This document shows, in pieces, positions 1 to 60,119 of a stretch of 64,000 nucleotides of DNA. The first letter of the stretch is position 1. Each line of letters begins with the position of its first letter. The notes beneath the pieces were generated by a model. That model had not been told where the DNA came from and ran no database searches. It saw only the letters and a list, made by a program, of their open reading frames with translations. This stretch comes from Platycnemis pennipes (Eukaryota > Arthropoda > Insecta > Odonata > Platycnemididae). The stretch is taken from the NCBI GenBank assembly GCA_933228895.1, contig OW121852.1, positions 127,033,544-127,097,543 on the forward strand, read 5' to 3'. The position numbers and the translations under genes were made by a program.

Positions 1-480
1 GTCTTAATTTCAACCTACCTTCTGACAATGATTCCCAATTTAATTCATTTAATAGACTCGTTACGCTAATAAGGTTATCATACCGTCCCTTCACAAATCT
101 TGCCGATCTTCGCTGCACAGTTCAAGTTCGTTATTTAGACCGATTTTGTAGGGATCCCATACACTGGCAGCATATTCTAAATAACGTCTTACAAGGAAAA
201 AGTAGCTGATTTCTCGTATATGATCGTCACATTTACCCAGTGCTCTTTTGACGAATGCCAGTTTACGATTCGCTTGACCCATTATTTCACGTATCTGTTT
301 ACCCCAGGAAAGATCATGTGTCAGTCTTATTCCAAGATATTTAATGGATTCCATGTTTGTTAATTCATTATTACTTATTGTGTAAGTGCTAAGAGGAGAG
401 CTATTCTTTTTCCAAAAATTCATTACAAGACATTTTTTAAAGTTTAATTCTAACTGCCATATCGCGTATCATTTGACAGA
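1..480 (-). pseudogene. CR1-like LINE (family A) reverse-transcriptase C-terminal fragment
   Basis: On the minus strand 423-91 reads the thumb/C-terminal region of a CR1/jockey-type reverse transcriptase. It includes a KYLGIRLTHDLSWGKQIREI stretch and a YLEYAASVWDPY stretch typical of this region. A one-base deletion near 118, relative to the sister copy at 46500, shifts the frame in the QRRSARF region. The same deletion is in copy 2 near 52013, so it predates the duplication. A WQLELNF-like stretch continues past 423 before decaying. The 3' end lies left of the window. This is a dead, 5'-truncated element. Confidence 0.85.
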
Positions 481-509
481 AATCGACTGTCTGTTCGCCA
501 TTTGTGTTC

Positions 510-725
510 ATTATCGGTCAACAATTCTAGGATTTGTTTGACGCTGCCCTCTACTCGATTCTTCTATCGGCCAACCTCTTCATAATGACGTAATTCTTCT
601 CTTTTACATCGATCGTCACACGTTCCATGTACCTCATACGAATCCTGCTTTTTCCATTCTTCCCGTTTACTTTTCCCTCGACTATTATCAACATCAGGCC
701 ATCGTGTCTTAAGATACCCTGACGG
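510..725 (-). pseudogene. RTE-like LINE 3' terminal fragment
   Basis: Read on the minus strand this matches the 3' end of the element at 49830-50750: KTRWPD, then a charged segment, then a methionine-tyrosine stretch, and an untranslated end with shared CTCTTCATAATGACGTAATT-type sequence. Only the last ~70 codons and the tail remain, so there is no catalytic part. Copy 2 has the same fragment at about 52410-52620. The clade call rests on general likeness to RTE/BovB C-termini. Confidence 0.6.
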
Positions 726-1764
726 TTTCAAACACAGCCCCCAGACGGATTGTGGGATTTAGACCACCGCTGTATACAACTACTGTAAACAAGGTAGTAA
801 GAATGTACATACTGGAGGACGTATGTCAGCCGATTTGAGAAGAGGGCGGCCATCCTGGATGGTTCGGGCATAAGTGCCTGCTACTAGCGATTCCCGTACC
901 CATGTATTTTTGCACCCAGTATAATTTAGACAATTAAGAAGATAAGCAAATGCATTATAGACGTCAAAGAAACCGAAGAAAGTCAGCAAACAAATGCCAA
1001 ACATTTATTTTAAATCTGAATTCCAACCTGATTTACTTAGAAAGCTATTTGCGGGATAAATATCCTAAAGGAAATCAATAGACAACGCTGAGATGTAACT
1101 TGTGTCCCATTCCAATGTTACTTATGTTTACATAGACACAATTTCAATAATGGGCGTAGACAGAACACAATATTTTGTACGGAGTAGGTGGCTGATCTGT
1201 TGCATGGATGCAGTGCAGTTGCATGTAGATCTTGTTAGTGTGTCTTATTTGCGTGTAAATTCTGTGTTTGGTGATATTACCCCTGCCATACACCCTCGCT
1301 ATGGCTAGTAGGGTATTAAATACATGTACATACATATGTATATTGTGGGTGTACTGTAGGTATCAGAAATAATGTTACTTTTAAAGTATAATGTTTTCCT
1401 CTGTTTTAATACTTTTGTAATCCACATAATTCGCGTAGAGCTTGAAAATTTAAAAGCAATCCACCAATAATTCACCTAAGTAAAACCTAATTAGCACATT
1501 ACAATACCTACAAATTTGTGTAGATGGTAACTGAAGCCAAGGAAGCGAGGCTAATTCTCAACGACAACATAGGTTTTTGAGCATTTATAAGGTTATTTAG
1601 GAAGTTTAAGAAGATTTTGGGTATACGACACAGTCTCGGGCAAAACTTTGTGCAAGTTATTCATAGCAGTGTTGATACCTTTTCTCCTACCAAGATTTTA
1701 GGCCTCCGCGACAGACTTCGTGATGCCGGTTTATTCGGTCGGTCGGGGCTCAATCTACTTTCAC
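726..1764. other. Intergenic DNA with a minus-strand ORF kept in both copies
   Basis: A minus-strand ORF (1004-780) has an almost identical counterpart at 52901-52680, where it runs on into the RTE-like fragment without a stop. I recognise no family in it, and near-identity is expected from the young duplication alone. A decayed plus-strand LINE 3' tail (CCTGCCATACACCCTCGCTA type) is at 1270-1316. The rest shows nothing coding. Confidence 0.4.
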
Positions 1765-1985
1765 ACGATCTACATCTACACGATACCCTGCAAGCCACCG
1801 CGAGGGTGTGTGGCAGGGGGTGAAGATCACCAAGCATGCACTACCGACATGCAAAAAAGTAATTATAGGGTCTCATGCAACTACATTGTTAGTACATAAT
1901 GTATTTAAGGGATTAATACATGCATCATGCACTACAGACTACTCTAAAATATTTCTCCTACTTAAACCTTTGGTACAGATTCACG
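1765..1985 (-). repeat. CR1-like LINE (family B) 3' end fragment
   Basis: Starts with the CTACATCTACACGATACCCT tail on the plus strand (3' end of a minus-strand element). The family-B 3' UTR follows, with GGCAGGGGGTGAAGATCACC, a second motif TCATGCAACTACATTG, and a CATGCATCATGCACTACAG region. It is truncated before the reverse-transcriptase reading frame. The corresponding piece in copy 2 (53648-53935) carries an extra 71-bp tandem duplication. Confidence 0.8.
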
Positions 1986-2891
1986 CTCTTGAAGAGATAC
2001 GAGGATTTGGTGCCTATATTACTACCATTTTCACATAGGTACTCCTTTCGGCGATATTCCACGTTTATCGGTAACTAGAGTCATTCCGGAGAGAGGCCAA
2101 TTTTTAGTGAAGTTTGGCACATAATTAACATGTGTCTGCTTGCATTAATTTCTTGTTGGCCTGTTAAGGAAATGTTTACATCAGTTTTTTTCCCTCGGTA
2201 GCAGTAAATACGCGTGCATAGCAAGAGGGTTATAAATTAATTTACTCCACGATTGGTAAGTCCGCTTTTTAAACGATTGGCCACCGGGGGTTTTGCAGTG
2301 AGTTTCACGACTTCCATCCGCATTGTTGGATTCGTAAAAGTTTTTATCCTAGTATAAATTTGCATTTTTTGTATCTCGTAGAGATCTTTGAAGTATCTCA
2401 GCTCCAGACGTTTCCGTGCAGTTGGAGGCATACTATCTATCGCTCGTAAATGCTTCTGTTAAGTAATTTAAATCGTGTCCTCTGGATTTCGTTAAATTAA
2501 TCCACTCAGGGGTTTTGAAAGAATTGGAATGTTATCGCCTTGTTTGCTGTATTTTACCACTCCTTCACTCAATGATGCCCAACAAGTTAGAAGAATTTTT
2601 AACAGCTTAAATGAAACAGCTAAATTGAGACAGGAATTTATAGGACGTAGTATGCAATAAAAAATTTAGTTCGATTTCCGCTATGCTTTCGAAATTTTTT
2701 TCTATCTGGTTAGAATTTGATAACTAACATTCAAGTGCAAATGAACTGGAAGTAATGTCACTCCTTATTATTACAAAAACTTTATTTTTAATGATTGTAG
2801 ATTTCTCTTGTTCCAGTACCATCAAATTGTAAATTAAACTCAGCCTAGCATTTTTATATGTTCGCCTTTAATGTATTCTCCATTCTCATCT
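1986..2891. other. AT-rich intergenic DNA
   Basis: No gene, RNA or transposon end is recognisable. Bases 2080-2290 differ from copy 2 (54030-54260) much more than the flanks do, including small indels. From about 2300 onward the copies are again almost identical. Confidence 0.5.
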
Positions 2892-3217
2892 ATCTACATC
2901 TACATAATACCCTGCAAGCCACCATAAAGGTGTGTGGCAGGGGGTGAACTCTCACCAAACATGCACTACATATCATGCATAAAAAAGGGATTAGTACTTG
3001 TATAGGTACTGTTCAAAACTACGCTATTTAAAAAAAGATAAAAATAGCATAACATACATGCAAAAACATGCCGCTAGTTGGGTTAGCTATAAGTCCTTAT
3101 ACCAACATGCAGCTACCAATGTTATCCATTGCTACACTCGTACTGGATATATTTACCGTTATTCATATCCCTAATAGTACGAGGAAAAAAGGACATTTTG
3201 AATCTGTCAGTTCGGCA
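2892..3217 (-). repeat. CR1-like LINE (family A) 3' end
   Basis: The tail CTACATCTACATAATACCCT begins at about 2892. It is followed by the family-A 3' UTR (GGCAGGGGGTGAACTCTCAC) and the last ORF codons: on the minus strand CRTDRFKMSFFPRTIRD-like, then MNNGKYIQYE-like. It is 5'-truncated at about 3217, right after the TGCCGAACTGACAGATTC motif read on the minus strand. Copy 2 has the same truncated insertion at 54861-55186. Confidence 0.85.
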
Positions 3218-3592
3218 ACATTGCATTATTTAGAGAGATTAGTGAATTTTAAGAGCGTCTAGATGTTTATGAGTTCATTATTTCTGCAGATATGTGTTCT
3301 CTTTAGGAAGAAGGGGCACGGGAAAGAAAAGAATTCGTCGGAATTCAAAACCGTTTAAAAGAACCGGAACAGACTAAGAAGATTGCTAAATAATATTTAA
3401 CTTGGCAGCTATTGTAATTAACAATATTGTAACGTAAACTCAGTATGCTTAGACAGATGTTCGTGAATAACGTCTTATCCACTCTATTTACAACGGATAT
3501 AATATATGAAACAATATTAGTATTTCCTTCGCTCACTTTTGCATTGTTTTGACGGCACGTTAACTTAATTAGAATTTTTTCTATCGTTGCAG
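3218..3592. other. AT-rich DNA upstream of a possible splice acceptor
   Basis: Nothing coding is supported. The stretch ends in a pyrimidine-rich run and CGTTGCAG at 3585-3592, a good 3' splice-site match. A 105-residue minus-strand ORF overlapping 3345-3662 has no recognisable features and looks accidental. Confidence 0.4.
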
Positions 3593-3746
3593 GAATTATA
3601 GCAGAGCTACGTTTCCAAGTGGCTTCCCGGAAGGTGACCTGGTTAGGGTGAGGAATCTTCACTGGTGCCCGAAACAGATGAAGAGGGAGCAGTTACAAGA
3701 GGAGGAAAAACATTGGTTTGCTCTTGGCTTTGTACTCCTCATGTAA
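3593..3746 (+). CDS. Possible terminal exon, 50 codons, family unknown
   Basis: An acceptor-like CTATCGTTGCAG is followed by an open frame (phase 2 entry, codons from 3594) that ends with TAA at 3744-3746. The peptide contains FPSGFPEGDLVRVRNLHW and then a very acidic/basic QLQEEEKHW stretch. Copy 2 (55562-55715) keeps the frame with one Tyr/Cys change. I recognise no domain. Against it: no upstream partner exon is identified, and conservation between recent duplicates proves little. Confidence 0.25.
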
Positions 3747-3763
3747 AACGGACTTTATTTCAG

Positions 3764-3780
3764 GTTCAACGACCTATAAG
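3764..3780 (+). other. 17-nt block between splice-like signals, differing between copies
   Basis: TTTATTTCAG (acceptor-like) precedes and GTAATA (donor-like) follows this 17-nt block. Copy 2 has the same flanks around 55733-55749, but four of the inner bases differ, while neighbouring hundreds of bases are almost identical. It could be a micro-exon or a chance juxtaposition. Confidence 0.2.
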
Positions 3781-3810
3781 GTAATAAAAGTGTGTATGAA
3801 TATGGGTAAG

Positions 3811-4000
3811 ATATGTATTCATGAATACATATTTGGTTTTTTGTATTTCTCATAGGAGCGGTTAGCTCCTAAAATGTGAGGTAATTTGGTATATCAAGCT
3901 TGATTAATGGTGTAACTATTGTACTTACTCTGGTAACATGGAGGACCGGTCCTCCAACTATAGGGTATGTGGCCACATGCCCATTCTAGTGAGTCGACTC
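3811..4000. other. Cluster of six perfect palindromes/hairpins
   Basis: Within 190 bp lie six dyads. They are a 22-bp perfect palindrome at 3811-3832 centred on TTCATGAA, a 7-bp stem with 5-nt loop at 3853-3871 (TAGGAGC/GCTCCTA), and a 12-bp palindrome at 3893-3904 (ATCAAGCTTGAT). The others are a 16-bp palindrome at 3940-3955 (GGAGGACCGGTCCTCC), a 12-bp palindrome at 3967-3978 (ATGTGGCCACAT) and a 10-bp palindrome at 3991-4000 (GAGTCGACTC). All six are intact in copy 2 (about 55780-55970). They immediately precede the tandem array. Function is unknown; dimeric protein sites or RNA stem-loops are possibilities. Confidence 0.75.
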
Positions 4001-4196
4001 TAGGCAGGAATATAATTGCTTACTGTGGTCTATATGTCATGTGATATCCTGTGCGTTTTGTAATTTGGTTTTTAATTGTGTAATACCCGCCTGTGCCTAT
4101 TTTTACATGTTGTGATGCATGTCTTTAATGAATACTTTTATTTTTATGCTGTCTTTCTATGATTCTTTCACAGTTAAGCTGACGGTATCTCCTTAG
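4001..4196 (+). other. Lead-in to the array, ending in a splice-acceptor-like site
   Basis: T-rich DNA ending in a branch-like GCTGAC and TATCTCCTTAG at 4196. This 3' splice-site-like end differs from those inside the array, where the branch motif is TACTAAC. It would be the first intron of a spliced array. Confidence 0.35.
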
Positions 4197-7100
4197 GTTT
4201 CACCACAACGCCCCGGCCTGCCAGAGTGTAGGGTATGTAGTCAGTTTCTAATATTTTGAAACAAAGGCCCTTCTGGCCCATCGTAACGGTAAGATATATA
4301 GGGTATGCGTTTAGCTTATATTACTATTTTGTGGATGCGAAGTTTGCTCTAGTTTTCAATCTCAAAAAATGTGGATTTGGATCGCCAGTTACGAAGTGCA
4401 TCCAAGTTACTTCGTTTCTGAGTGACCATTCCTCGCATTTTTTAAATGCACTTTCGGCTATCTCCATTAAATGTGAGCAACTTGGCATTCAATATTTTTT
4501 TTGTCTATGTGTACTAACCCGCTCTCTCCTTAGGTATCACCACAACGCCCCGGCCTGCCAGAGTGTAGGGTATGTAGTCAGTTTCTAATATTTTGAAACA
4601 AAGGCCCTTCTGGCCCAACGTAATGGTAGGATATTTAGGGTATGCGTTTAGCTTATATTACTATTTTGTGGATGCGAAGTTTGCTCTAGTTTTCTATCTC
4701 AAAAGTCATGGATTTAGATCGCCAGTTACGAATTGCATCAATGTGACTTCGTTTCTGAGTGACCATTCCTCGCATTTTATTAAAATGCACTTTTGGCTCT
4801 CTGCATTAAATGTGAGCAACTTGGCATTCAATGGTTTGTTTTTTTTGACTTTTATGTGTACTAACCCGCTCTCTCCTTAGGTTTCACCACAACGCCCCGG
4901 CCTGCCAGAGTGTAGGGTATGTAGTCAGTTTCTAATGTTCTGAAACAAAGGCCCTTCTGGCCCATCGTAACGGTAGGATATTTAGGGTATGCATTTAACT
5001 TATATTACTATTTTGTGGATGCGAAGTTTGCTCTAGTTTTCAATCTCAAAAAATGTGGATTTGGATCGCCAGTTACGAAGTGCATCCAAGTTACTTCGTT
5101 TCTGAGAGACCATTCCTCGCATTTTATTAAAATGCACTTTCGGCTATCTCCATTAAATGTGAGCAACTTGGCATTCAATATTTTGTTTTTTTTGTCTTTT
5201 ATGTGTACTAACCCGCTCTCTCCTTAGGTATCACCACAACGCCCCGGCCTGTCAGAGTGTAGGGTATGTAGTCAGTTTCTAATATTTTGAAACAAAGGCC
5301 CTTCTGGCCCATCGTAACGGTAGGATATTTAGGGTATGCGTTTAGCTTATATTACTATATTATGGATGCGAAGTTTGCTCTAGTTTTCAATCTCAAAAGT
5401 CATGGATTTGGATCGCCAGTAACGAAGTGCATCCAAGTTACTTCGTTTCTGAGTGACCATTCCTCGCATTTTATTAAAATGCACTTTCGGCTATCTCCAT
5501 TAAATGTGAGCAACTTGGCATTCAATATTTTGTTTTTTTGTCCATTATGTGTACTAACCCGCTCTGTCCTTAGGTATCACCACAACGCCCCGGCCTGTCA
5601 GAGTGTAGGGTATGTAGTCAGTTTCTAATATTTTGAAACAAAGGCCCTTCTGGCCCATCGTAACGGTAGGATATATAGGGTATGCGTTTAGCTTATATTA
5701 CTATTTTGTGGATGCGAAGTTTGCTCTAGTTTTCAATCTCAAAAAATGTGGATTTGGATCGCCAGTTACGAAGTGCATCCAAGTTACTTCGTTTCTGAGT
5801 GACCATTCCTCGCATTTTTTAAATGCACTTTCGGCTATCTCCATTAAATGTGAGCAACTTGGCATTCAATATTTTGTTTTTTTTTGTCTTTTATGTGTAC
5901 TAACCCGCTCTGTCCTTAGGTATCACCACAACGCCCCGGCCTGTCAGAGTGTAGGGTATGTAGTCAGTTTCTAATATTTTGAAACAAAGGCCCTTCTGGC
6001 CCATCGTAACGGTAGGATATTTAGGGTATGCGTTTAGCTTATATTACTATTTTGTGGATGCGAAGTTTGCTCTAGTTTTCAATCTCAAAAAATGTGGATT
6101 TGGATCGCCAGTTACGAAGTGCATCCAAGTTACTTCGTTTCTGAGTGACCATTCCTCGCATTTTTTAAATGCACTTTCGGCTATCTCCATTAAATGTGAG
6201 CAACTTGGCATTCAATATTTTGTTTTTTTTGTCTTTTATGTGTACTAACCCGCTCTGTCCTTAGGTATCACCACAACGCCCCGGCCTGCCAGAGTGTAGG
6301 GTATGTAGTCAGTTTCTAATATTTTGAAACAAAGGCCCTTCTGGCCCATCGTAACGGTAGGATATTTAGGGTATGCGTTTAGCTTATATTACTATTTTGT
6401 GGATGCGAAGTTTGCTCTAGTTTTCTATCTCAAAAATCATGGATTTAGATCGCCAGTTACGAATTGCATCAATGTGACTTCGTTTCTGAGTGACCATTCC
6501 TCGCATTTTATTAAAATGCACTTTTGGCTCTCTGCATTAAATGCGAGCAACTTGGCATTCAATGGTTTGTTTTTTTTGACTTTTATGTGTACTAACCCGC
6601 TCTCTCCTTAGGTTTCACCACAACGCCCCGGCCTGCCAGAGTGTAGGGTATGTAGTCAGTTTCTAATGTTCTGAAACAAAGGCCCTTCTGGCCCATCGTA
6701 ACGGTAGGATATTTAGGGTATGCATTTAACTTATATTACTATTTTGTGGATGCGAAGTTTGCTCTAGTTTTCAATCTCAAAAAATGTGGATTTGGATCGC
6801 CAGTTACGAAGTGCATCCAAGTTACTTCGTTTCTGAGTGACCATTCCTCGCATTTTATTAAAATGCACTTTCGGCTATCTCCATTAAATGTGAGCAACTT
6901 GGCATTCAATATTTTGTTTTTTTTTGTCTTTTATGTGTACTAACCCGCTCTCTCCTTAGGTATCACCACAACGCCCCGGCCTGTCAGAGTGTAGGGTATG
7001 TAGTCAGTTTCTAATATTTTGAAACAAAGGCCCTTCTGGCCCATCGTAACGGTAGGATATTTAGGGTATGCGTTTAGCTTATATTACTATTTTGTGGATG

Positions 7101-9754
7101 CGAAGTTTGCTCTAGTTTTCAATCTCAAAAAATGTGGATTTGGATCGCCAGTTACGAAGTGCATCCAAGTTACTTCGATTCTGAGTGACCATTCCTCGCA
7201 TTTTTTAAATGCACTTTCGGCTATCTCCATTAAATGTGAGCAACTTGGCATTCAATATTTTGTTTTTTTTGTCTTTTATGTGTACTAACCCGCTCTGTCC
7301 TTAGGTATCACCACAACGCCCCGGCCTGTCAGAGTGTAGGGTATGTAGTCAGTTTCTAATATTTTGAAACAAAGGCCCTTCTGGCCCATCGTAACGGTAG
7401 GATATTTAGGGTATGCGTTTAGCTTATATTACTATTTTGTGGATGCGAAGTTTGCTCTAGTTTTCAATCTCAAAAAATGTGGATTTGGATCGCCAGTTAC
7501 GAAGTGCATCCAAGTTACTTCGTTTCTGAGTGACCATTCCTCGCATTTTTTAAATGCACTTTCGGCTATCTCCATTAAATGTGAGCAACTTGGCATTCAA
7601 TATTTTGTTTTTTTTTGTCTTTTATGTGTACTAACCGGCTCTGTCCTTAGGTATCACCACAACGCCCCGGCCTGTCAGAGTGTAGGGTATGTAGTCAGTT
7701 TCTAATATTTTGAAACGAAGGCCCTTCTGGCCCATCGTAACGGTAGGATATTTAGGGTATGCGTTTAGCTTATATTACTATTTTGTGGATGCGAAGTTTG
7801 CTCTAGTTTTCAATCTCAAAAAATGTGGATTTGGATCGCCAGTTACGAAGTGCATCCAAGTTACTTCGTTTCTGAGTGACCATTCCTCGCATTTTTTAAA
7901 TGCACTTTCGGCTATCTCCATTAAATGTGAGCAACTTGGCATTCAATATTTTGTTTTTTTTTGTCTTTTATGTGTACTAACCCGCTCTGTCCTTAGGTAT
8001 CACCACAACGCCCCGGCCTGTCAGAGTGTAGGGTATGTAGTCAGTTTCTAATATTTTGAAACAAAGGCCCTTCTGGCCCATCGTAACGGTAGGATATTTA
8101 GGGTATGCGTTTAGCTTATATTACTATTTTGTGGATGCGGAGTTTGCTCTAGTTTTCAATCTCAAAAAATGTGGATTTGGATCGCCAGTTACGAAGTGCA
8201 TCCAAGTTACTTCGTTTCTGAGTGACCATTCCTCGCATTTTTTAAATGCACTTTCGGCTATCTCCATTAAATGTGAGCAACTTGGCATTCAATATTTTGT
8301 TTTTTTTGTCTTTTATGTGTACTAACCCGCTCTGTCCTTAGGTATCACCACAACGCCCCGGCCTGCCAGAGTGTAGGGTATGTAGTCAGTTTCTAATATT
8401 TTGAAACAAAGGCCCTTCTGGCCCATCGTAACGGTAGGATATTTAGGGTATGCGTTTAGCTTATATTACTATTTTGTGGATGCGAAGTTTGCTCTAGTTT
8501 TCTATCTCAAAAATCATGGATTTAGATCGCCAGTTACGAATTGCATCAATGTGACTTCGTTTCTGAGTGACCATTCCTCGCATTTTATTAAAATGCACTT
8601 TTGGCTCTCTGCATTAAATGCGAGCAACTTGGCATTCAATGGTTTGTTTTTTTTGACTTTTATGTGTACTAACCCGCTCTCTCCTTAGGTTTCACCACAA
8701 CGCCCCGGCCTGCCAGAGTGTAGGGTATGTAGTCAGTTTCTAATGTTCTGAAACAAAGGCCCTTCTGGCCCATCGTAACGGTAGGATATTTAGGGTATGC
8801 ATTTAACTTATATTACTATTTTGTGGATGCGAAGTTTGCTCTAGTTTTCAATCTCAAAAAATGTGGATTTGGATCGCCAGTTACGAAGTGCATCCAAGTT
8901 ACTTCGTTTCTGAGTGACCATTCCTCGCATTTTATTAAAATGCACTTTCGGCTATCTCCATTAAATGTGAGCAACTTGGCATTCAATATTTTGTTTTTTT
9001 TTGTCTTTTATGTGTACTAACCCGCTCTCTCCTTAGGTATCACCACAACGCCCCGGCCTGTCAGAGTGTAGGGTATGTAGTCAGTTTCTAATATTTTGAA
9101 ACAAAGGCCCTTCTGGCCCATCGTAACGGTAGGATATTTAGGGTATGCGTTTAGCTTATATTACTATTTTGTGGATGCGAAGTTTGCTCTAGTTTTCAAT
9201 CTCAAAAAATGTGGATTTGGATCGCCAGTTACGAAGTGCATCCAAGTTACTTCGTTTCTGAGTGACCATTCCTCGCATTTTTTAAATGCACTTTCGGCTA
9301 TCTCCATTAAATGTGAGCAACTTGGCATTCAATATTTTGTTTTTTTTGTCTTTTATGTGTACTAACCCGCTCTGTCCTTAGGTATCACCACAACGCCCCG
9401 GCCTGCCAGAGTGTAGGGTATGTAATCAGTTTCTAATATTTTGAAACAAAGGCCCTTCTGGCCCATCGTAACGGTAGGATATTTAGGGTATGCGTTTAGC
9501 TTATATTACTATTTTGTGGATGCGAAGTTTGCTCTAGTTTTCAATCTCAAAAAATGTGGATTTGGATCGCCAGTTACGAAGTGCATCCAAGTTACTTCGT
9601 TTCTGAGTGACCATTCCTCGCATTTTTTAAATGCACTTTCGGCTATCTCCATTAAATGTGAGCAACTTGGCATTCAATATTTTTTTTGTCTATGTGTACT
9701 AACCCGCTCTCTCCTTAGGTATCACCACAACGCCCCGGCCTGCCAGAGTGTAGG
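4197..9754 (+). other. 17 candidate 36-nt micro-exons in the array
   Basis: Blocks of exactly 36 nt start at 4197, 4534, 4881, 5228, 5574, 5920, 6265, 6612, 6959, 7305, 7651, 7997, 8342, 8689, 9036, 9382 and 9719. All but the first are preceded by TACTAAC, a CCGCTCTCTCCTTAG-type tract and AG. All are followed by GTATGT. The branch adenosine lies about 16 nt before the AG. The blocks are GC-rich in AT-rich surroundings. Being 12 codons long they are phase-symmetric: joined in series they read either VSPQRPGLPECR repeats or YHHNAPACQSVG repeats without stops, while the third frame has a TAG. Only two positions vary, GTA/GTT and CCA/TCA. Splicing itself is inferred. Alternatively the block is a conserved protein-binding box of a satellite. 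Confidence 0.55.
6324..9095 (+). repeat. Higher-order repeat inside the array
   Basis: The B-C monomer pair at 6324-7018 is essentially repeated at 8401-9095, 2077 bp (six monomers) later. It shares private variants such as AAAAATCATGG and AAATGCGAGC that the B monomer at 4593 lacks. The earlier B at 4593 lies 1731 bp (five monomers) before 6324. The array therefore grew by unequal exchange of multi-monomer blocks. Confidence 0.85.
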
Positions 9755-9778
9755 GTATGTAGTCAGTTTCTAATATTT

Positions 9779-10240
9779 TCATTAACATCGTCAGGGACGT
9801 GAAGTGAGTGTAGTGCAGTGCAGTGCAGTGTAAGTGACGAAGAAAGTGTTTTGTGTTAACGTGAGTGTCGTGTCAATTTGGTGTAATTCAGTGTGGTGTA
9901 AATCAGTGTTGTGTAAGTGGTAGCCGCTTTCAACGGTTGGTGTGCATCATGTGGACCAGAGAGACTCTAGTGTATTGAATATAATGTAAATATGTGCCTG
10001 TGTATTTTTTGCTCCTTTTTCTACCTACCCTTCCAATAGCTACGCCGGCTCAGCAGAAAAAAGGGAGAGAGAGCAGCCACGACTACCAGGGACTTCTTTG
10101 GCGTGTATGTGAGTTTGTCGATTGTCTTTTGTTTATTTTTAATTGTTTATTTTTATTCTATATATGCTTAGGAAATGTGTTTATAATCTCTTTACGATGA
10201 ATATGCTTTTTATATTCTCTATACGTTATGTTTTCCTTAG
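9779..10240 (+). other. GTG-rich stretch after the array with splice-like signals
   Basis: Begins with CATTAACATCGTCAG, acceptor-like, then a run with GTGCAGTGCAGTG. Copy 1 has more CAGTG units than copy 2. It contains several GTGAGT/GTAAGT strings. A second candidate exon, bounded by CCCTTCCAATAG before about 10040 and GTATGTGAG after about 10104, differs in frame from copy 2 by one A in an A-run. No protein is recognisable. Confidence 0.3.
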
Positions 10241-10690
10241 CACATATAGTGAGTAGGGTTTTTCATATCGGTCGTTTGTCCCGGGTCAATCCAGGTTTTT
10301 AGTCGTTGAACTCCGGTTCTGCCATGTGCACTGGCTCTTAGTTTTTCACTTAGGCAGGAATCACACTCTTAGCGCCATTATGCGCATTCAATCCATTTAT
10401 ATTTTCATATTATTCCCTGTTTTTATTCTCAGTATTTTGCTTTGTGTACCGGCTCTTAGTGTTTTTAACTAGGCAGGGATCCTACTGTTCAGCACTTATA
10501 GTGTGTAGGGGTTGGCTTATCTGTCATTTGACCCGGGTCAATCCCGGTTTGGCATTTGAACTACAGTTTTGCCGTGTCCACTGGCTCTTAGTTTTTGATT
10601 TAGGTAGGACTCACATTCTTAGCGCCATTATGCGCTACCATTCTATTTATATCTTAAGATTGTTCCGTTGTTCACGTATTTGTCACTGAT
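10241..10690 (+). repeat. Diverged ~252-bp tandem repeat
   Basis: CACATATAGTGAGTAGGG at 10241 recurs as CACTTATAGTGTGTAGGGG at 10493. Both are followed by CCCGGGTCAATCC, a TGTGCACTGGCTCTTAG-type motif, TTAGGCAGGAATCAC-type sequence and CTTAGCGCCATTATGCGC. A partial third unit (GTACCGGCTCTTAG) lies between them at about 10445. Copy 2 carries the same at 58682-59118. Confidence 0.85.
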
Positions 10691-11699
10691 AATTTGATTT
10701 ATTTTTTATGGTTAATTTTACCTTATTTTAATGTTTCTTTAATTAATGTATTTATTACAGGTTTTCCTCAATTTATTGTATTTTCTTTTGCAGGTGTATG
10801 TGTGAATGCAATTTTTGAGTTTTTTTATTGGAGAATGAATGATGATGAACAGGGTCAGCGCCGATAGGTATGCGAATGAAATAGGTAGGATTAGGGAATT
10901 TAGCAGTATATTTAGTTTAGAGGGTGGGTGGATTTTAGATTGGGAGGATAGGGTTTAATATGGTATATCCTTAGTTTTTAGTCCGCTTGATCTCGTCGCG
11001 TCTTGCCCTGGCCCTGGGAGTGAATGCGTGGAATAGGCCTCTGCGCAGCCCGGAGGGGAACGCAGGGGGAAACGCCACGTTAAATAAAGGTTAACGAGCC
11101 GGTGGCGCGACCTCTTGGGTTCGGCATGGAATAGCGCCTGTGTGTATGTGGTTATGCGTGTGAGAATGATCTAATAAGCATAAAAAGCACCATTCTAGCG
11201 AAACGTAAAACTTTTGTTACTACACTCATTTTGCGTGTTTATTTTTTCATGGTTTTACAATCGTATAAGATAGTGGCAGGTGCAGAGATATAGTTTTATT
11301 TCTGCCAGGAAGAGACTATTATGTAAATACTGGCCTCAGAAACCCGTCCAGTATTCCTTCATGGAGAGGGAATTTTCAGTACATGACTATTAGGCAATAT
11401 TGACCACCCTCTCAAGGCTTATAAACATACCCTCGCTCTGCTTACAAAAATGTTCATTCTTGCAATATTTTTTTTCTCATGTCATGCTTCCCACCGACTT
11501 CTCCCGACGACTCCGATATTTCTTTGCCTCAAATTTTGCTTCTTTTTCCTATCCATTTTATGTTTACTTTTACTAAATACTCTACGCTTCGCTTCCGTTT
11601 TAATATTTGTATGTCTTCATTTATTTCACGGCTTTCAATTTTTTCTTTGTTTACATTTTATTCCAAGCTTTTTTTTACCAATACCAACTTTACCAACTT
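10691..11699. other. Gene-free DNA with a GC-rich block
   Basis: Acceptor-like TTCTTTTGCAG precedes about 10794. A GC-rich block at 10975-11130 contains an AATAAAGG string and is nearly identical in copy 2. A GCGAAACG motif at about 11198 lies near CTAATAA, which is reminiscent of the hammerhead-like motifs elsewhere but too degenerate to call. The long frame starting at 11479 is only meaningful from about 11700. Confidence 0.4.
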
Positions 11700-11973
11700 T
11701 AATCGAGTTTGCCAAGATAATATTTATGCAAAAATAAAGAGTTATGATAGTAAACCGATGAACTGGATAGAAAATAACCTTTCTGATAGAAAATTAACTG
11801 TAAAAATTCTTGATCAATGCAGTGGAATGAAAACAATCAAATCAGGAGTTCCTCAGGGTTCAATATTAGGACCAAATCTGTTCCTTATATATGACATTGT
11901 TAAGCACATTAGAAACGGCAAGATTTTTATGTATGCAGACAACATTGTGACAACTTCTTTGAAAGCAAATTAA
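11700..11973 (+). pseudogene. Jockey/CR1-like reverse-transcriptase palm fragment
   Basis: Plus-strand translation gives a WIENNLSDRK-type segment, then SGVPQGSILGP (RT motif around the template grip), LFLIYDI and YADN. The last replaces the catalytic F/YADD, so its second aspartate is Asn. The upstream sequence is low-complexity and not recognisable as RT, and the 3' half is missing. Copy 2 (about 60120-60410) has an additional stop after the LSD segment and the same YADN. Dead element. Confidence 0.8.
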
Positions 11974-14900
11974 TAAAAATATTGTATGATATTTTATTAT
12001 ATATTATTATATGTATATTATTGTATATTTTATTGTATTTTAAACTCATGAGATGATGAATATCGTAATCTATGTATCATTCTTCTCATCCAATTTCAGA
12101 GTTATCAATATTTTGCTGTGCATTACTGTACACCTAATGAAAAAGTTTTTACGATATAAAATATACCTCATTGTAACTTTGTAATTTGCTGTAAAATTTG
12201 TAAGTTGCTGTAAAATAAATGTTTCCGTAAAAAAATTGATAAAGTGATTTCCACGATCATTGATTTATACACTAACACCAAACGAAATACTAAATTATAA
12301 CATTTCCTATTGTTTTATTAAATACTTTTGCCATGACGACGTAAATGGCTATAAAAAGTTTATTATCATTTCAAACTGTGCATATGTTATCTACTTACAT
12401 CCAAAAAAATGGCTTTCTTCTTTTTCTTTAAACTGCACATATATACTAAATGTACGGTAACATTTGGCAGGATTTCTTAGATGATGAAGTGTCGTATTTA
12501 TTCAATTGCTTGGCTCTCACTTCGGAGACGTAATTTACGAGCTATAAGATAAAGATCATGAAATTACAAATATATGTATGGAAATTTTTCCCTTCTTCGC
12601 ATGACGGTTTTGTTTTTCACACTAGGATTTTAAGGAAATGTCCACCCTTATTTCATCTGGAAAAACAATGTTCCATTTACAATGATTTTCATGGAATCAT
12701 GCTTATTTTTATACTGAAGAATGTTCTTTACAATTTACAATAACTGTTATATGATCGAGTTAATTCCAAATATTCTATTGAAAATAATTTTTTAATGTCT
12801 TAGGTCTACTTATTAAATTACCTTTTTTATGCAATTATTCAGTGTTATTGGTGATAAAGTACGCATTTTTATATTGTGGCTCATGAATATATTTATGAAT
12901 GACATATTACATGTTTATTGTTTTATATTATTGTAGTGAAGTTATGCAAACTATACGATGACATCAACATCTGGCTAATGCTTTTAAATTAATACTGTGA
13001 AATTTTTCACGTGGTATTATTGGATTCTGAAAATAAAATAATAATTCAATTCCATACATTTTACAAATTTATTCTTGTTTCTTGTTGTTGTTTGTTGTCT
13101 GAAATCGAAATTTCCACACGCAAGAAACATGGGTTGGAGTGGCTCATGAATATTTATTTACAAAAATTGAGATAAAAGACTTTTCTTAGAGCCCTTTCGT
13201 ACTCTAGTCTCTAAATTTGGATTTTCTGTTTGATATGGCGTCTTTTTATAGGAATTTTATGTCCACGCAGAATCTGCCTTCATCAGTATATTTGTCCATT
13301 ATTTTTTTCAAATCATATGGTCTCGGTGTCAAATCAACATACGTTGCCGTGGGGAAAGGGGGCGTCCATTAATCACGTTAGGTGATGCGAAGTGGGTCCG
13401 AGAAAAGTCTTGAAGCATCACCTTAGTGGTCTACAAGTGAATTATGTGCTTTTTTATCATCCAGGTGAACCTGCCCAGATCAAGTTGTTTATGTGTGTCG
13501 TTCAAGCACACTGACTTTGTCGTTTTTCATCAGACACTTCGTTATAATCCCTTCACATGTATGCTATAACAGTAATGCTTTACTTATCATCCCCTCTTTC
13601 ATTGAATGAGAATCAGATGTCCTAACCTGCGGTACCTTTCATTACTATCTAGGATCTTGATTTAATATCTTGGTTGTAGGAAGAAAAATGTGGATTATTT
13701 TTTCAAACTACTTATTACATTCTGAAATGTTTTTTTCTCCCCTACATATTTTGTATCGTGTTTTTTATTGTGTTTGCACTTTGTGGTGTATTACTTACTG
13801 TTTTAATATACAATAATGTGTAACATGTTGTAGATTATGTATAAATAAATCTTTAGTTTACTCAATCTCATAATATTACATATGTAATAATTTAATGTAT
13901 ACTGTATGTATAATATAGCCATAATATATGTGTATTGATGTGGCTGCAATGACTTGAAACAATCGTACTAATAAAAAGATAAATTATGTTTGTGTTTTTT
14001 TCATGAACACGATTTATTTAATTTTTCCTCGAAATGTGTTTTCTCATTCCTTTGTGAATGGCAAAAATGTCTGAAATGTTTATCAGTATTCTTTTCTGAT
14101 ATTGGCATTTCAGGAATTGTTTTCTTTGGGTCTAAATTTTGTTCTAACAGCTATTTTATAATTCGATAATTGGTTTGGAATAAAGACATTGACCTAGAAA
14201 CTTAATTTTAATCTACAATAAGCTTACATTAGCTATAATTCTTTTTTATTTTTTTCATTATTTATGTGAAAGGATGCCTTTGTTACAAACATATTTTAAG
14301 TTATATGATTTTATTTTTTTATTTTTTATTAATTACTCTTGTTTTTCATTTATGGTATGCTCAGCTGATTTTTAATATTCTGACCAAATTGATTTTTTTA
14401 TCTAAGACTATTCGGTAATTTTTCCGGAATAATAATAGTTTCTTAATGTACTAAGAGGGAGTTGAAAGTGTGAAACTGCTTTATTTGTATGCATGAGAAA
14501 TTGTTAGATAGCCAATATCATTTAAACTACAATAACAACAGTTATTTCTACATTCCAATCTTTGTCTCAGGAGTTGCTGATAGTGTAAACTTGTGAATAT
14601 AGCAATGAAGTGTGAAATCTTCTGCGAATTTAAGTGGATAATCTTTGGATTTAGTAAAATGTTTTAAATTGCTTCCGATAAGAATTCATTGACTCTGGGG
14701 ATTCGTTGTAACGTATACCTTTTCAACTAAACATATCTTGATGTATTCTACATTACTACTAATATATTTATGTGAGTTAAAAACGTTATAAACTCCTGTA
14801 TTTATACGGAGGACTGCCTGCCTGTATTTTTGCATATATTCTATTGTATCGGTATCATAGTCAGAAAACCTGACAAACAACACTCTCGACACTAAACGGA

Positions 14901-15546
14901 GTTGCAACGAAAATCAACACTGCAAATATTTTTCAAGAAATGAATAAGAATGGAATAAACCACAAAGACAGTTTCCAGTGTTTGATTGGCTTGTCAAAAC
15001 AAAAAACGATCAAGGCCTCTATCACCACAGCATCGAATTTGGCAAAGTAACTGAAAGAGTAACTTTTGACGTAAAAGTTACTTTTTTAACCTTAACATAA
15101 ATCAGTTACTTTTTTAGAAAAGTAACTTTCAAATTTACCTAGATACTTTTCACATAGATTACTTTAACTTTATTCAATTAATTTTTTTCGGTCACGTTCC
15201 CAACTATGATCGGTAAATACATAACACCCAATGTATTCGGATTTCATTTTATGTTTGCTTTAAGGTAGTAATTAGTTGTTTGGATGTTAATTGTATTCCT
15301 GCAATTCTTTCTATTACTGTTTGCTTTTACACAATTTTTTTCTCAATTGATTCCTAATATTCCTTTTAATGTGGCATGCAGTGAAAAACAGCGAGACTAT
15401 TTTAAATAAATTATAATGACTGAGACCATATTTTTATAAAAAGAAGCATATCATGAGTTATGCTTGCCGACTTACTTCGCAAGAATTAAAAATAACTTAA
15501 CAGTGGATTATTCAGGAATCTCTGTATCATCATTTTTGGTTCGTCT
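11974..15546. other. AT-rich gene-free DNA
   Basis: No supported gene. It includes TAT/ATT-rich runs near 11985-12040. At 15045-15170 there is a cluster of AGTAACTTTT and its reverse complement AAAAGTTACT in several orientations, which looks like a MITE terminus or foldback remnant. The short ORFs here are all unrecognisable. Copy 2 equivalent is 60411-64000. Confidence 0.5.
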
Positions 15547-32924: not shown

Positions 32925-34275
32925 GATATTCCTGCAGAACTAATAAAAAATTCAGGAGAGAAGAAATTAACCCATCTTTACAAGACCACCTCCGACATGA
33001 ACTCAACAAGAGGAATACCCAGGGACTTAGTCAAAAACATCATCATTCCTATTCCCAAAAAGAATTTTTAAGAAGAAGAATATTTTAGCATCATAATACT
33101 GAAAACACATGCATCGAATATATTGACAAGGATCATCTACAAATGAATAGAACGAAAAGCAGAGGAGTTCCTGGATGAAGATCAATTTGGATTCAGAAAA
33201 ATAAGGGTACAAGAGAGACAATATTGGCCCTTAGGCTGCTCATAGAGAAGAGAATGGAGAAGAACAAGCCGACGTTCATTGCATTTGTGGATTTAGAGAA
33301 GGCTTTGACAATGTGGATTGGGATTCAATGCTTGGAATTCTGAAAGGAATTGGAGTGTCCTACAACGATCGAAGAATTATCAAGAGTTTGTATAAAAACC
33401 AAGTAGTGGTGATAAAATCTGGACCCAGCTGTGAATAGGCAAGAATAAGGAAAGAAGTGAGACAAGTCTCCCGTAAGACAGTCTCCCGTAATTTTTAATG
33501 CTTACATCGAGAGAGCCATCAATGAAATCAAAGAGAAGACTTCTGGAGTGACTATCCACGGAGAAAAAATAAGCATGCTGCGATTCGCTGATGACATAGC
33601 ACTCATAGCAGATACAGAGAGGGATCTGAACAAGATTCTAGTAACCATGGAAAGGACAATGGCCAGATATCAGCCGAAGATCAATAAAAAGAAGACTAAT
33701 ATATTGGTGTGCAGCAAGAAAGAAGAGGCCAAAACCAATGTCAAACTAGGAAAACAAAAACTGGAAGAGGAGAAAGAGTTCTGTTACCTTGGAAGCCGAG
33801 TAGCCAATGACGGACGAAGCAAAAAAGAACTAGTCAGTAGAATAGCCCAGGCAAAGAGGGTATTCTATCAAAAGAAGAATCTACTTACCGCTGGAAATAC
33901 AAGCGTAGAAGCAAGGAAACAATTCATCAGAACGTACATCTGGAGCGTGTTCCTCTATGGCAGTGAAGCATGGACGATGACAGCAGCGGAAAAGAAAAGG
34001 GTGGAAGCATTCAAAATGTGGTGCCACAGAAGAATGATGAAAACAAATGGATCGACCGAGTAAATGACGAGGAAGTTCTAAGAAGAGTGGGAGAAAAGAA
34101 AAGTCTTCTGATTACCCTAAGAAGAAGACGGGAGAACATGATATGCTACAATATGAGACATGATAGCCTGATGAAGACAATCGTTGAGGGGTAAGTGGAA
34201 GGGAAGAATGGCAAAGGAAGGCCTCGTGTAAGATATATGGAACAAGTGATAAAGGATGTGAAAGACAAGTACTAT
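32925..34275 (+). pseudogene. RTE-like LINE reverse transcriptase, decayed
   Basis: In order, with frameshifts and stops, it shows GIDDIPAELIKN, DEDQFGFRK, FIAFVDLEKAFDNVDWDS (RT motif A), a degenerate GVRQG region replaced by a small duplication (AGTCTCCCGTAA twice), and ISMLRFADDIALIADTE (intact catalytic FADD). Then come YLGSRVANDGRSKKE, YIWSVFLYGSEAWTM and FKMWCHRRMM. The 33548-34063 frame is open for 171 codons. Likeness to BovB/RTE C-termini suggests the clade. At about 34270 it passes directly into a family-B 3' end. Confidence 0.85.
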
Positions 34276-52400: not shown

Positions 52401-52409
52401 GTGTTCATT

Positions 52410-55561: not shown

Positions 55562-55715
55562 GAATTGTAGCAGAGCTACGTTTCCAAGTGGCTTCCCGGA
55601 AGGTGACCTGGTTAGGGTGAGGAATCTTCACTGGTGCCCGAAACAGATGAAGAGGGAGCAGTTACAAGAGGAGGAAAAACATTGGTTTGCTCTTGGCTTT
55701 GTACTCCTCATGTAA
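55562..55715 (+). CDS. Possible terminal exon (copy 2)
   Basis: Counterpart of 3593-3746, frame intact, second codon Cys instead of Tyr. Same doubts apply. Confidence 0.25.
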
Positions 55716-55779: not shown

Positions 55780-55970
55780 ATATGTATTCATGAATACATA
55801 TTGTGTTTTTTGTATTTCTCATAGGAGCGGTTAGCTCCTAAAATGTGAGGTAATTTGGTATATCAAGCTTGATTAATGGTGTAACTATTGTACTTAATCT
55901 GGTAACATGGAGGACCGGTCCTCCAACTATAGGGTATGTGGCCACATGCCCATTCTAGTGAGTCGACTCT
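55780..55970. other. Palindrome cluster (copy 2)
   Basis: All six palindromes of 3811-4000 are present unchanged, including the 22-bp one around TTCATGAA and GGAGGACCGGTCCTCC. Confidence 0.75.
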
Positions 55971-56164
55971 AGGCAGGAATATAATTGCTTACTGTGGTCT
56001 ATATGTCATGTGATATCCTGTGTGTTTTGTAATTTGGTTTTTATTGTGTAATACCCGCCTGTGCCTATTTTTACATGTTGTGATGCATGTCTTTAATGAA
56101 TACTTTTATTTTTATGCTGTCTTTCTATGATTCTTTCACAGTTAAGCTGACGGTATCTCCTTAG

Positions 56165-58219
56165 GTTTCACCACAACGCCCCGGCCTGTCAGAGTGTAGG
56201 GTATGTAGTCAGTTTCTAATATCTTGAAACAAAGGCCCTTCTGGCCCATCGTAACGGCAGGATATTTAGGAAATAAGTTTAGCTATTAGTGTTATTTTGC
56301 GAATGCGAAGTTTGCTCTAGTTTTCAATCTCAAAAAATGTGGATTTGAATCGCCAGTTACGAAGTGCATCAAAGTTACTTCGTTTCTGAGTGACCATTCC
56401 ACGCATTATTTTAAATGTACTTTCGGCTATCTACATTAAATATGAGCAACTTGGCATTCAATATTTTTTTTTGTCTATGTGTACTAACCCGCTCTCTCCT
56501 TAGGTATCACCACAACGCCCCGGCCTGTCAGAGTGTAGGGTATGTAGTCAGTTTCTAATATTTTGAAACAAAGGCCCTTCTGGCCCATCGTAACGGTAGG
56601 ATATTTAGGGTATGCGTTTAGCTTATATTACTATTTTGTGGATGCGAAGTTTGCTCTAGTTTTCAATCTCAAAAAATGTGGAATCGCCAGTTACGAAGTG
56701 CATCCAAGTTACTTCGTTTCTGAGTTACCATTCCTCGCATTATTTTAAATGCACTTTCGGCTATCTACATTAAATATGAGCAACTTGGCATTCAATATTT
56801 TGTTTTTTTTTGTCTTTTATGTGTACTAACCCGCTCTCTCCTTAGGTATCACCACAACGCCCCGGCCTGTCAGAGTGTAGGGTATGTAGTGAGTTCCTAA
56901 TATCTTGAAACAAAGGCCCTTCTGGCACATCGTAACGGTAGGATATTTAGGGTATGCGTTTAGCTATTAGTGTTATTTTGCGAATGCGAAGTTTGCTCTA
57001 GTTTTCAATCTCAAAAAATGTGGATTTGGATCGCCAGTTACGAAGTGCATCAAAGTTACTTCGTTTTTGAGTGACCATTCCTCGCATTTTTTTAAAAGGC
57101 ACTTTCGGCTATCTCCATTAAATGTGAGCAACTTGGCATTCAATATTTTGTTGTTTTTTTTTTGTCTTTTATGTGTACTAACCCGCTCTCTCCTTAGGTT
57201 TCACCACAACGCCCCGGCCTGTCAGAGTGTAGGGTATGTAGTCAGTTCCTAATATCTTGAAACAAAGGCCCTTCTGGCTCATCGTAACGGTAGGATATTT
57301 AGGGTATGCGTTTAGCTATTAGAGCTATTTTGTGGATGCGAAGTTTGCTCTTGTTTTCAATCTCAAAAAATGTGGATTTGGATCGCCAGTTACGAAGTGC
57401 ATCCAAGTTACTTTGTTTCTGAGTGACCATTCCTCGCATTTTATTAAAATGCACTTTCGGCTATCTCCATTAAATGTGAGCAACTTGGCATTCAATATTT
57501 TGTTTTTTTTTGTCTTTTATGTGTACTAACCCGCTCTGTCCTTAGGTATCACCACAACGCCCCGGCCTGTCAGAGTGTAGGGTATGTAGTCAGTTTCTAA
57601 TGTTTTGAAACAAAGGCCCTTCTGGCCCACCGTAACGGCAGGATATTTAGGAAATGCGTTTAGCTATTAGTGTTATTTTGCGAATGCGAAGTTTGCTCTA
57701 GTTTTCAATCTCAAAAGTCATGGATTTGGATCGCCAGCTACGAAGTGCATCCAGGTGACTTCGTTTCTGAGTGACCATTCCTCTCATTATTTAAATTGCA
57801 CTTTCGGCTATCTTCATTAAATGTGAGCAACTTGGCATTCAATATTTTGTTTTTTTGTCTTTTATGTGTACTAACCCGCTCTCTCCTTAGGTTTCACCAC
57901 AACGCCCCGGCCTGTCAGAGTGTAGGGTATGTAGTCAGTCCTAAAATCTTGAAACAAAGGCCCTTCTGGCCCATCGTAACGGCAGGATATTTAGGGTATG
58001 CGTTTAGCTTATATTACTATATTATGGATGCGAAGTTTGCTCTAGTTTTCAATCTCAAAAGTCGTGGATTTGGATCGCCAGTTACGAAGTGCATCCAAGT
58101 TACTTCGTTTCTGAGTGAACATTCCTCGCATTTTATTAAAATGCACTTTCGGCTATCTTCATTAAATGTGAGCAACTTGGCATTCAATATTTTGTTTTTT
58201 TGTCTATTAACCCGCTCTC
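56165..58219 (+). repeat. Tandem array of 6 ~346-bp monomers with 36-nt blocks (copy 2)
   Basis: Monomer landmarks fall at 56224, 56563, 56905, 57257, 57605 and 57949. The 36-nt blocks start at 56165, 56504, 56846, 57199, 57546 and 57891. The five inner blocks follow TACTAAC and CTCTCTCCTTAG-type tracts; all six precede GTATGT. Monomers here are more unlike one another than in copy 1 (for example TTAGCTATTAGTGTTATTTT variants). Even so, the blocks show only the same two variable positions. The last acceptor is destroyed: CTCCTTGTGAATCACCACAT fuses a truncated block to the downstream flank. Confidence 0.95.
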
Positions 58220-58681
58220 TCCTTGTGAATCACCACATCGTCAGGGACGTGAAGTGTGTGCAGTGCAGTGTAAGTGACGAAAAAAGTGCTTTGTGTGAAC
58301 GTGAGTGTCGTGTCAGTGTGGTGTAATTCAGTGTGGTGTAAATCAGTGTTGTGTAAGTGGTAGCCGCTTTCAACGGTTGGTGTGCATCATGTGAACCAGA
58401 GAGACTCTAGTGTATTGAATATAATGTAAATATGTGCCTGTGTATTTTTTGCTCCTTTTTCTACCTACCCTTCCAATAGCTACGCCGGCTCAGCGGAAAA
58501 AAAGGGAGAGAGAGCAGCCACGACTACCAGGGACTTCTTTGGCGTGTATGTGAGTTTGTCGATTGTCTTTTGTTTATTTTTAATTGTTTATTTTTATTCT
58601 ATATATGTTTAGGAAATGTGTTTATAATCTCTATACGATGAATATGCTTTTTATATTCTCTATACGTTATGTTTTCCTTAG
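58220..58681 (+). other. GTG-rich flank (copy 2)
   Basis: Counterpart of 9779-10240 with fewer CAGTG units and one extra A in the A-run of the candidate exon near 58500. Confidence 0.3.
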
Positions 58682-59118: not shown

Positions 59119-60119
59119 TTGTCACTGATAATTTGATTTATTTTTATGGTTAATTTTACCTTATTTTAATGTGTCTTTAATTAATGTATTTATTACAGGT
59201 TTTCCTCAATTTATTGTATTTTCTTTTGCAGGTGTATGTGTGAATGGTATTTTTGAGTTTTTTTATTGGAGAATGAATGATGATGAACAGGGTCAGCGCC
59301 GATAGGTATGCGAATGAAATAGGTAGGATTAGGGAATTTAGCAGTATATTTAGTTTAGAGGGTGGGTGGATTTTAGATTGGGAGGATAGGGTTTAATATC
59401 GTATATGCTTAGTTTTTAGTCCGCTTGATCTCGTCGCGTCTTGCCCTGGCCCTGGGAGTGAATGCGTGGAATAGGCCTCTGCGCAGCCCGGAGGGGAACG
59501 CAGGGGGAAACGCCACGTTAAATAAAGGTTAACGAGCCGGTGGCGCGACCTCTTGGGTTCGGCATGGAATAGCGCCTGTGTGTATGTGGTTATGCGTGTG
59601 AGAATGATCTAATAAGCATAAAAAGCACCATTCTAGCGAAACGTAAAACTTTTGTTGCTACACTCATTTTGCGTGTTTATGCTTTCATGGTTTTACAATC
59701 GTATAAGATAGTGGCAGGTGCAGAGATATAGTTTTTTTCTGCCAGGAAGAGACTATTATGTAAATACTGGCCTCAGAAACCCGTCCACTATTCCTTCATG
59801 GAGAGGGAATTTTCAGTACATGACTATTAGGCAATATTGACCACCCTCCCAAGGCTTATAACGATGCCCTCGTTTTGCTTACAAAAATGTTCATTCTTGC
59901 AATATTTCTTTTCTCACCGACTTCTCCCGACGACTCCGATATTTCTTTGCCTCAAATTTTGCTTCTTTTTCCTATCCATTTTATGTTTACTTTTATTAAC
60001 TACTCTACGCTTCGCTTCTGTTTTAATATTTGCATGTCTTCATTTATTTCACGGCTTTCAATTTTTTCTTTGTTTACATTTTATTCCAAGCTTTTTTTTT
60101 ACCAATGCCAACTTTACCA
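59119..60119. other. Gene-free DNA with GC-rich block (copy 2)
   Basis: Counterpart of 10691-11699; the GC-rich block (about 59415-59560) is essentially unchanged. Confidence 0.4.

Follow-up and report, generated by a model that had tools for sequence, protein, structure and literature searches.

A satellite that contributes a spliced exon from each of its monomers is already known from the mouse. According to the account of the Dxz4 macrosatellite in PMC3491370, its transcript joins a unique 5' exon to the same 163-nucleotide (nt) exon from each monomer and then to unique 3' exons, and reverse transcription PCR (RT-PCR) gives ladders and reveals exon skipping. In the kringle IV-2 variable number tandem repeat (VNTR) of LPA, the 5.6-kb unit contains two coding exons of ~160 and 182 bp (PMC11462820). 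Schistosome micro-exon genes (MEGs) have symmetric exons of 6-36 bp, the skipping of which could vary the protein, and their products are described as almost without exception secreted or membrane-anchored (PMC5825161). The introns of spider silk genes resemble each other within a gene, and the ensemble repeats of Flag comprise 440 residues (PMC3522626). Aphid bicycle genes consist of many microexons (~17 exons on average), and almost all of their internal exons begin at codon position 2 (PMC9168663). Here we describe a stretch of 64,000 nt from the odonate Platycnemis pennipes (contig OW121852.1, positions 127,033,544 to 127,097,543; below, the window), which contains two versions of a tandem array whose ~346-bp monomers each carry a 36-nt block framed by splice-like signals. 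We consider it probable that this array as a whole is a cassette of spliced 36-nt exons, a judgement that covers a non-coding transcript as well as translation in either of two reading frames, C and A.

The locus resembles Dxz4 in that the same exon candidate recurs from monomer to monomer with its own acceptor and donor (AG and GTATGT at 23/23 intact blocks). Unique exons on both sides, as in Dxz4, are candidates recognized by splice signal only. Dxz4 as reported differs in its 163-nt exon, which is not a multiple of three, its 36-kb array, its location on a mammalian X chromosome and its binding of CTCF, whereas here the predicted exon has 36 nt, the monomers 346 bp and two frames are open, all of this known from sequence alone. 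An earlier note on this DNA had called a satellite that doubles as a variable-length exon cassette unusual, an assessment that the Dxz4 precedent qualifies (PMC3491370). With LPA as described, the locus would share the tandem repetition of exon plus intron by which copy number changes protein length, and its exon phase is indeed retained at any copy number, the 36-nt unit being stop-free in two frames in 23/23 blocks; here, though, there is one 36-nt exon per 346 bp, and coding is only putative. MEGs have similarly short symmetric exons, but are not described as arrays of one repeated exon in the parts of PMC5825161 drawn upon. The exon-intron repeats of spider silk genes are likewise kept alike within one gene, but their repeats are long, whereas the exon is about one tenth of the monomer here. 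For bicycle genes, the corresponding parts of PMC9168663 describe no tandem array of one exon, and membership in this family was rejected because block frame B, which a start at codon position 2 would need, ends in TAG. Among the best-ranked matches in the open-licence literature no description of a satellite of microexons was found. Exact 21-mers of the block were absent from viral_contigs and genome_contigs, which says little because both collections are limited to viruses and prokaryotes and may omit the window's own genome.

Structure of the array

A scan of the forward strand with up to 10 mismatches to the consensus recovered 23 blocks, 17 of them with starts from 4197 to 9719 and six from 56165 to 57891 (Table 1). 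Block-to-block spacing inside the arrays is 337-352 bp, and Tandem Repeats Finder placed the arrays at 4188-9779 and 56156-58201 (scores 10194 and 3377). This bears out the 17 plus six blocks in ~346-bp monomers that the earlier note had reported, with the amendment that the six intact blocks of copy 2 are followed by a degraded seventh (...CTATTAACCCGCTCTCTCCTTGTGAATCACCACATCG...), in which GT at 58225-58226 stands in place of the acceptor AG and block-like letters are confined to ~58227-58237. The blocks had also been called identical; they are near-identical, with variation limited to 2/36 columns, position 3 (A/T) and position 25 (C/T), and these are the two variable sites (GTA/GTT and CCA/TCA) named at the time. 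Frames A (GTA TCA...) and C (G TAT CAC...) are free of stops, in agreement with the twelve open codons in two of three frames noticed earlier, and frame B terminates in TAG. Each of the 23 intact blocks stands between CCTTAG and GTATGT. TACTAAC, which was thought to accompany each block as well, lies ~22 nt upstream in 21/23; it is absent from the first block of each array (4197 and 56165), which has a different upstream sequence carrying AAGCTGAC.

Table 1. Coordinates of the arrays, candidate exons and other features in the window.
Feature	Position	Strand	Remarks
Tandem array, copy 1	4188..9779	+	17 blocks, 16 full monomers of 337-348 bp
Block 1	4197..4232	+	first candidate exon; weak acceptor, no TACTAAC, AAGCTGAC upstream
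Block 2	4534..4569	+	first block with TACTAAC
Blocks 3-10, copy 1 (starts)	4881, 5228, 5574, 5920, 6265, 6612, 6960, 7305	+	pattern of block 2
Blocks 11-17, copy 1 (starts)	7651, 7997, 8342, 8689, 9037, 9382, 9719	+	pattern of block 2
Block 17	9719..9754	+	final block of copy 1; ~25 bp of monomer follow
Tandem array, copy 2, with degraded seventh block	56156..58240	+	6 intact blocks
Intact blocks, copy 2 (starts)	56165, 56504, 56846, 57198, 57546, 57891	+	
E55, candidate upstream exon	3593..3647	+	acceptor 7.4, donor 5.6 (home-made matrices)
E55, copy 2	55562..55616	+	
E109, candidate upstream exon	3856..3964	+	ends TATAGG/GTATGT (slash, exon end)
E109, copy 2	55825..55933	+	
E65, weaker candidate downstream exon	10040..10104	+	pyrimidine tract upstream; acceptor 2.5, donor 0.4
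E65, copy 2	58480..58545	+	66 nt
E130, candidate downstream exon	10794..10923	+	acceptor 7.4, donor 4.1
E130, copy 2	59232..59361	+	
AATAAA, possible poly(A) signal	11083..11088	+	by eye only
Reverse transcriptase fragment	33461-34063		Pfam RVT_1, E 3.2e-14, above cut-off
Reverse transcriptase-type fragment	11425-11973		Pfam E 7.8e-6, below cut-off
Reverse transcriptase-type fragment	36249-36833		93 protein matches; the one with a species name is from a mussel (33% identity)

Splice signals and conservation

None of 2000 dinucleotide shuffles of a monomer contained the set of TACTAAC, acceptor and donor under strict settings; the set occurred in 24/2000 when any CTRAY branch point was accepted and in 106/2000 with weak cut-offs. 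Across the 64-kb window, the strict scan matched 20 of the 23 blocks (all but those at 4197, 7651 and 56165) and nothing else on the forward strand, and had zero matches on the reverse strand.

The distribution of variation was followed in an alignment of 21 monomers, each taken from one block start to the next, in which the terminal block of either array, lacking an intact successor, and the final spacer of copy 2 were omitted. Counting columns with few gaps, a core of 69 columns that extends from just before TACTAAC to GTATGTA has 4 variable columns, compared with 68/276 elsewhere (Fisher p 1.7e-4), and 11 parsimony steps compared with 93 (p 0.008). None of the 348 circular 69-nt windows has fewer steps than this core, and two adjacent starts tie. 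The block alone is variable in 2/36 columns versus 70/309 in the rest (p 0.009). Because the monomer copies are related, these tests measure constraint since the expansion and are not independent trials.

Candidate exons flanking the array

Acceptor and donor pairs 18-260 nt apart were collected with cut-offs of at least 5 for the acceptor and at least 4 for the donor (5/4). Outside the arrays, the forward strand of the window yielded just E55, E109 and E130, each of which passes in copy 2 as well and lies within ~1.2 kb of the array; the reverse strand yielded four pairs at two places. Within one 51.9-kb unit of the direct repeat described below, the flank (2589 bases) has three pairs on the forward and none on the reverse strand, and the remaining 43716 bases have none and three, respectively. 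Shuffled flanks equalled or exceeded the observed count in 0/400 cases. The weaker candidate E65 differs between the copies by one substitution and a 1-nt indel. A longer version of E55 (3592-3780) was replaced, as the acceptor at 3593 and the donor at 3648 score better. A search of either strand with five junction strings, in which up to 5 mismatches were allowed, revealed no fossil spliced copies in the window.

Some further features lie beside the array. Perfect loopless palindromes at 3811-3832 (22 bp), 3939-3956 (18 bp) and 10528-10541 (14 bp) are conserved in copy 2, and the second of them overlaps a candidate start codon at 3938. Palindromes of at least 14 bp number 14 in the window (10 with four duplicated pairs counted once), whereas 20 mononucleotide shuffles contained 5.55 on average and never more than 10. 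To the right of the array, 10239-10666 is a degenerate direct repeat (~80%, period ~250 bp), whose motif TAGGCAGGAAT recurs by eye on the left at ~4001.

A model of the putative exon cassette

The earlier note had proposed that the blocks are spliced. Signal statistics, the pattern of variation and the exon candidates on the same strand speak for this proposal, and although all of these are read from the DNA, the blocks probably are spliced. The array would then sit inside a small transcription unit on the forward strand, with E55 and E109 as unique upstream exons and E130, perhaps together with E65, downstream. An internal 36-nt exon with its ~310-nt intron would have been multiplied in tandem by unequal exchange. 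Since almost all monomers possess a branch point, an acceptor and a donor of their own, a transcript could join block to block (predicted junction GTGTAGG/GTATCACC), and any number of blocks could be included or skipped. As the exon is a multiple of three, neither skipping nor a change in array length would disturb the phase, and a change such as that between 17 and 6 units would alter the transcript in 36-nt steps. We infer that the array is transcribed and spliced and, with less assurance, that the spliced array may be translated. If it is spliced, the locus would be a small natural system in which to learn how the spliceosome copes with a long series of very short exons and their introns, all nearly alike, and sequential joining, the frequency of skipping and the conversion of array length into RNA length become addressable. 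If it is also translated, the number of repeats could change in one step of unequal exchange with the frame undamaged. If it is not spliced, it cautions that satellites may carry good splice signals.

Reading frames and a putative product

E55 shares with the block its two open frames, the third being closed in both, and neither E109 nor E130 has a frame open throughout. E109 contains an ATG at 3938 (context AACATGG) in phase with block frame A; two short ATG frames, one of a single codon and one of two, lie upstream of it. Joining E55, E109, the 17 blocks, E65 and E130 in silico gives a frame A model of 242 codons, MEDRSSNYR-(VSPQRPGL[P/S]ECR)17-tail, to which the symmetric exons would supply 17 x 36 nt and thus, as in MEGs, the greater part of the coding sequence. 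The copy 2 model has 106 codons and a different tail, and start and stop are present in both copies. The predicted protein has an isoelectric point of 10 and contains 17 RxxPxxP and 17 SPxR/K strings; the P form of the repeat has proline at every third residue (3, 6, 9). RVSPQRP and SPQR in the repeat resemble SH3-ligand and proline-directed kinase motifs. The product might thus be guessed to be a basic, multivalent extended scaffold of variable valency. Unlike the typical MEG product as described in PMC5825161, it shows by eye no hydrophobic leader at its MEDRSSNYR start.

Given translation, frame A has a slight advantage, since the model contains both a stop and an ATG in good context; that frame A of the block actually encodes the product is nonetheless unlikely in our estimation. 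A slightly better, if still doubtful, prospect is the more general proposal of a short satellite in which each monomer consists of an intron and a phase-symmetric coding exon of 36 nt, with the repeat number set both by array length in the DNA and by exon skipping in the RNA. Its product, a protein of 12-residue repeats that would be rich in proline if read in frame A and free to vary in valency, is to be regarded with the same doubt. The repeat peptide postulated in the earlier note is possible, but is put in question by the two frames open alike in the block and in E55, the shift of E65 between the copies and the lack of protein matches. The frameshifted copy 2 tail, the open rival frame and the absence of homologues make coding no more than possible.

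Weighing the evidence

Several observations count against the exon cassette or its translation. The splice matrices are home-made approximations from general knowledge, and with them the acceptor of block 1 (0.6) and the donor of E65 (0.4) are weak. Column conservation was known before the 69-nt core was set, and the core's ends follow the splice signals. For the block alone the step count is not significant (7/104 steps, p 0.14), owing to frequent change in its two variable columns; the lowest-variation 36-nt windows begin at columns 4-8 (3 steps, versus 7 from the block's first base), and another 36-nt window, at column 136, has 5 steps. The 5/4 cut-offs were chosen after the scores were known, so a grid of cut-offs is reported: at 3/3 the flank has five pairs on the forward and two on the reverse strand and the remaining 43716 bases have 18 and 15, and shuffled flanks equal or exceed the observed count in 3/400 cases at 4/4 and in 5/400 at 4/3. 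The 3' part of the longer E55 version (3593-3780) is more diverged than its surroundings. As for the protein, its tail differs between the copies because E65 has one extra base in copy 2. Frame C is also open in both copies via E55, the blocks and E65 to a stop inside E130 if E109 is omitted, and in a comparison by eye, which left out two adjacent substitutions in E130, three of four substitutions (two in the block, one each in E55 and E65) look milder in frame C. The protein search for the 12-residue repeats that the earlier note had suggested brought no support: the two repeat peptides gave 7508 candidates among 5.8 billion proteins with a best E of 0.36, for a 99-aa protein that contains VSPQRP once. 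Both protein models gave 25 candidates in the same collection, none at E<=10, and Pfam matched the models nowhere above its cut-offs (best Cuticle_3, frame C, 16.6 bits versus 27.1 needed). Such absence is weak evidence, because short near-perfect repeats are hard for short-read assemblies.

Splicing does not imply coding, and the array could belong to a long non-coding RNA or to the 5' untranslated region of a gene further right. We treat this as a serious contender, if short of probable. All of the splice evidence applies to it equally, the mouse Dxz4 transcript is a precedent (PMC3491370), and it would account for the interrupted frames of E109 and E130, the shift of E65 between the copies and the missing protein match. 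A block that is a multiple of three, open in two frames (predicted peptides VSPQRPGLPECR or YHHNAPACQSVG) and invariant in 34/36 columns, and an ATG at 3938 in phase with it, argue the other way, though not strongly. Alternatively, the spliced array might be translated in frame C from a start codon in an exon left of 3593, giving ...IIAELRFQVASRKVTWLG-([Y/F]HHNAPACQSVG)n-YAGSAEKREREQPRLPGTSLACVCVNAIFEFFYWRMNDDEQGQRR, a variant and product that we hold to be distinctly unlikely. One open frame does run from E55 through the blocks and E65 into the beginning of E130 in copy 1 and, with another tail, in copy 2, and the substitutions would be mild (Y/F and a synonymous one in the block, I/V in E55, synonymous in E65). 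This variant requires skipping of E109, because E109 has stops in each frame; moreover, neither E55 nor the frame C stretch of E109 showed a start codon, and frame C tails, too, differ between the copies on account of the 1-nt indel in E65, which shifts that of copy 2.

The splice-like motifs might instead be coincidental or unused, and the array a plain satellite or a regulatory array near a gene, for instance of protein-binding sites. Arrays with a conserved core are generally common, and invariance is also seen elsewhere in the monomer, for example in AGCAACTTGGCATTCAAT. This explanation is rather unlikely in view of the rarity of the signal set in strict and loose shuffles, the coincidence of the least variable 69-nt stretch with splice signals plus block, and the clustering of same-strand exon candidates at both flanks. 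A very improbable idea is that of a spliced-leader or small nuclear RNA (snRNA)-type gene array, in which the block would be the leader exon and a donor, an Sm-like site (AATATTTTGA) and a hairpin would come after it. The tandem units do contain a 36-nt exon followed by a donor, and a GGCC-cttct-GGCC hairpin appears in the predicted fold. The Sm-like site occurs in many monomers but varies (AATGTTCTGA, AATATCTTGA, AAAATCTTGA), folding is no better than that of shuffles (z 0.21 for 116 nt, -0.87 for 381 nt), and the conserved part before the block resembles a 3' splice site. Rfam had no match at gathering in the window and none at E<=5 in 761 bases of array. The variable site, the unremarkable folding and the lack of Rfam matches led to the rejection of this array type.

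The monomer itself was considered as a gene too, and rejected. All 16 full spacers of copy 1 (4241-9773) hold a stop-to-stop frame of 94-118 aa (SVSNILKQRPFWPIVTVGYLGYAF...), which is taken as chance: the one tested had no Pfam match, and length differences of 1-2 bp shift the frame.

Two versions of the locus and signs of unequal exchange

The region 1-15546 aligns with 51898-64000 in BLAST pieces of 95-98% identity, forming a direct repeat that spans 12 kb or more, has a ~51.9-kb period and extends past both ends of the window. From position 1 to 12.9 kb, without the array boundary, 51/74 alignment blocks of 100 columns have at least 97 matches, gaps being scored as differences; from 12.9 to 14.2 kb the blocks have 76 to 97 matches. 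The two arrays are one locus in two versions, with 17 versus 6 units, and the evidence presented here therefore comes from one locus seen twice, not from two loci. The repeat may have arisen by a true ~51.9-kb tandem duplication or may represent two haplotypes joined by the assembler, and the window is compatible with either.

Within copy 1, three pairs of monomers have zero tree distance, 6265/8342 and 6612/8689 (six units, 2077 bp, apart) and 5920/9037 (nine units), which suggests recent unequal exchange among monomers. Frequent change at block columns 3 and 25 (4 and 3 parsimony steps) fits exchange between units. There is a hint of a higher-order hexamer of ~2077 bp in 6265-9754. When this region is compared with itself at an ungapped shift of 2077, 54 mismatches occur in 1413 bp, so this higher-order repeat is imperfect or disrupted by small indels.

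Other features of the window

A self comparison at E 1e-10, from which matches of <1500 bp inside array 1 were filtered out, places repeats up to position 3218 among the first 120 matches listed, which extend beyond 40 kb; from there to ~11400, again among the matches listed, no repeats occur except the duplication, the arrays and the 10239-10666 direct repeat. Of ten open frames searched against Pfam, two match reverse transcriptase (Table 1). Many short stretches that look by eye like 3' ends of long interspersed nuclear elements are repeated across the window, and at 38619-39371 a 374-bp unit is present in two tandem copies (90%).

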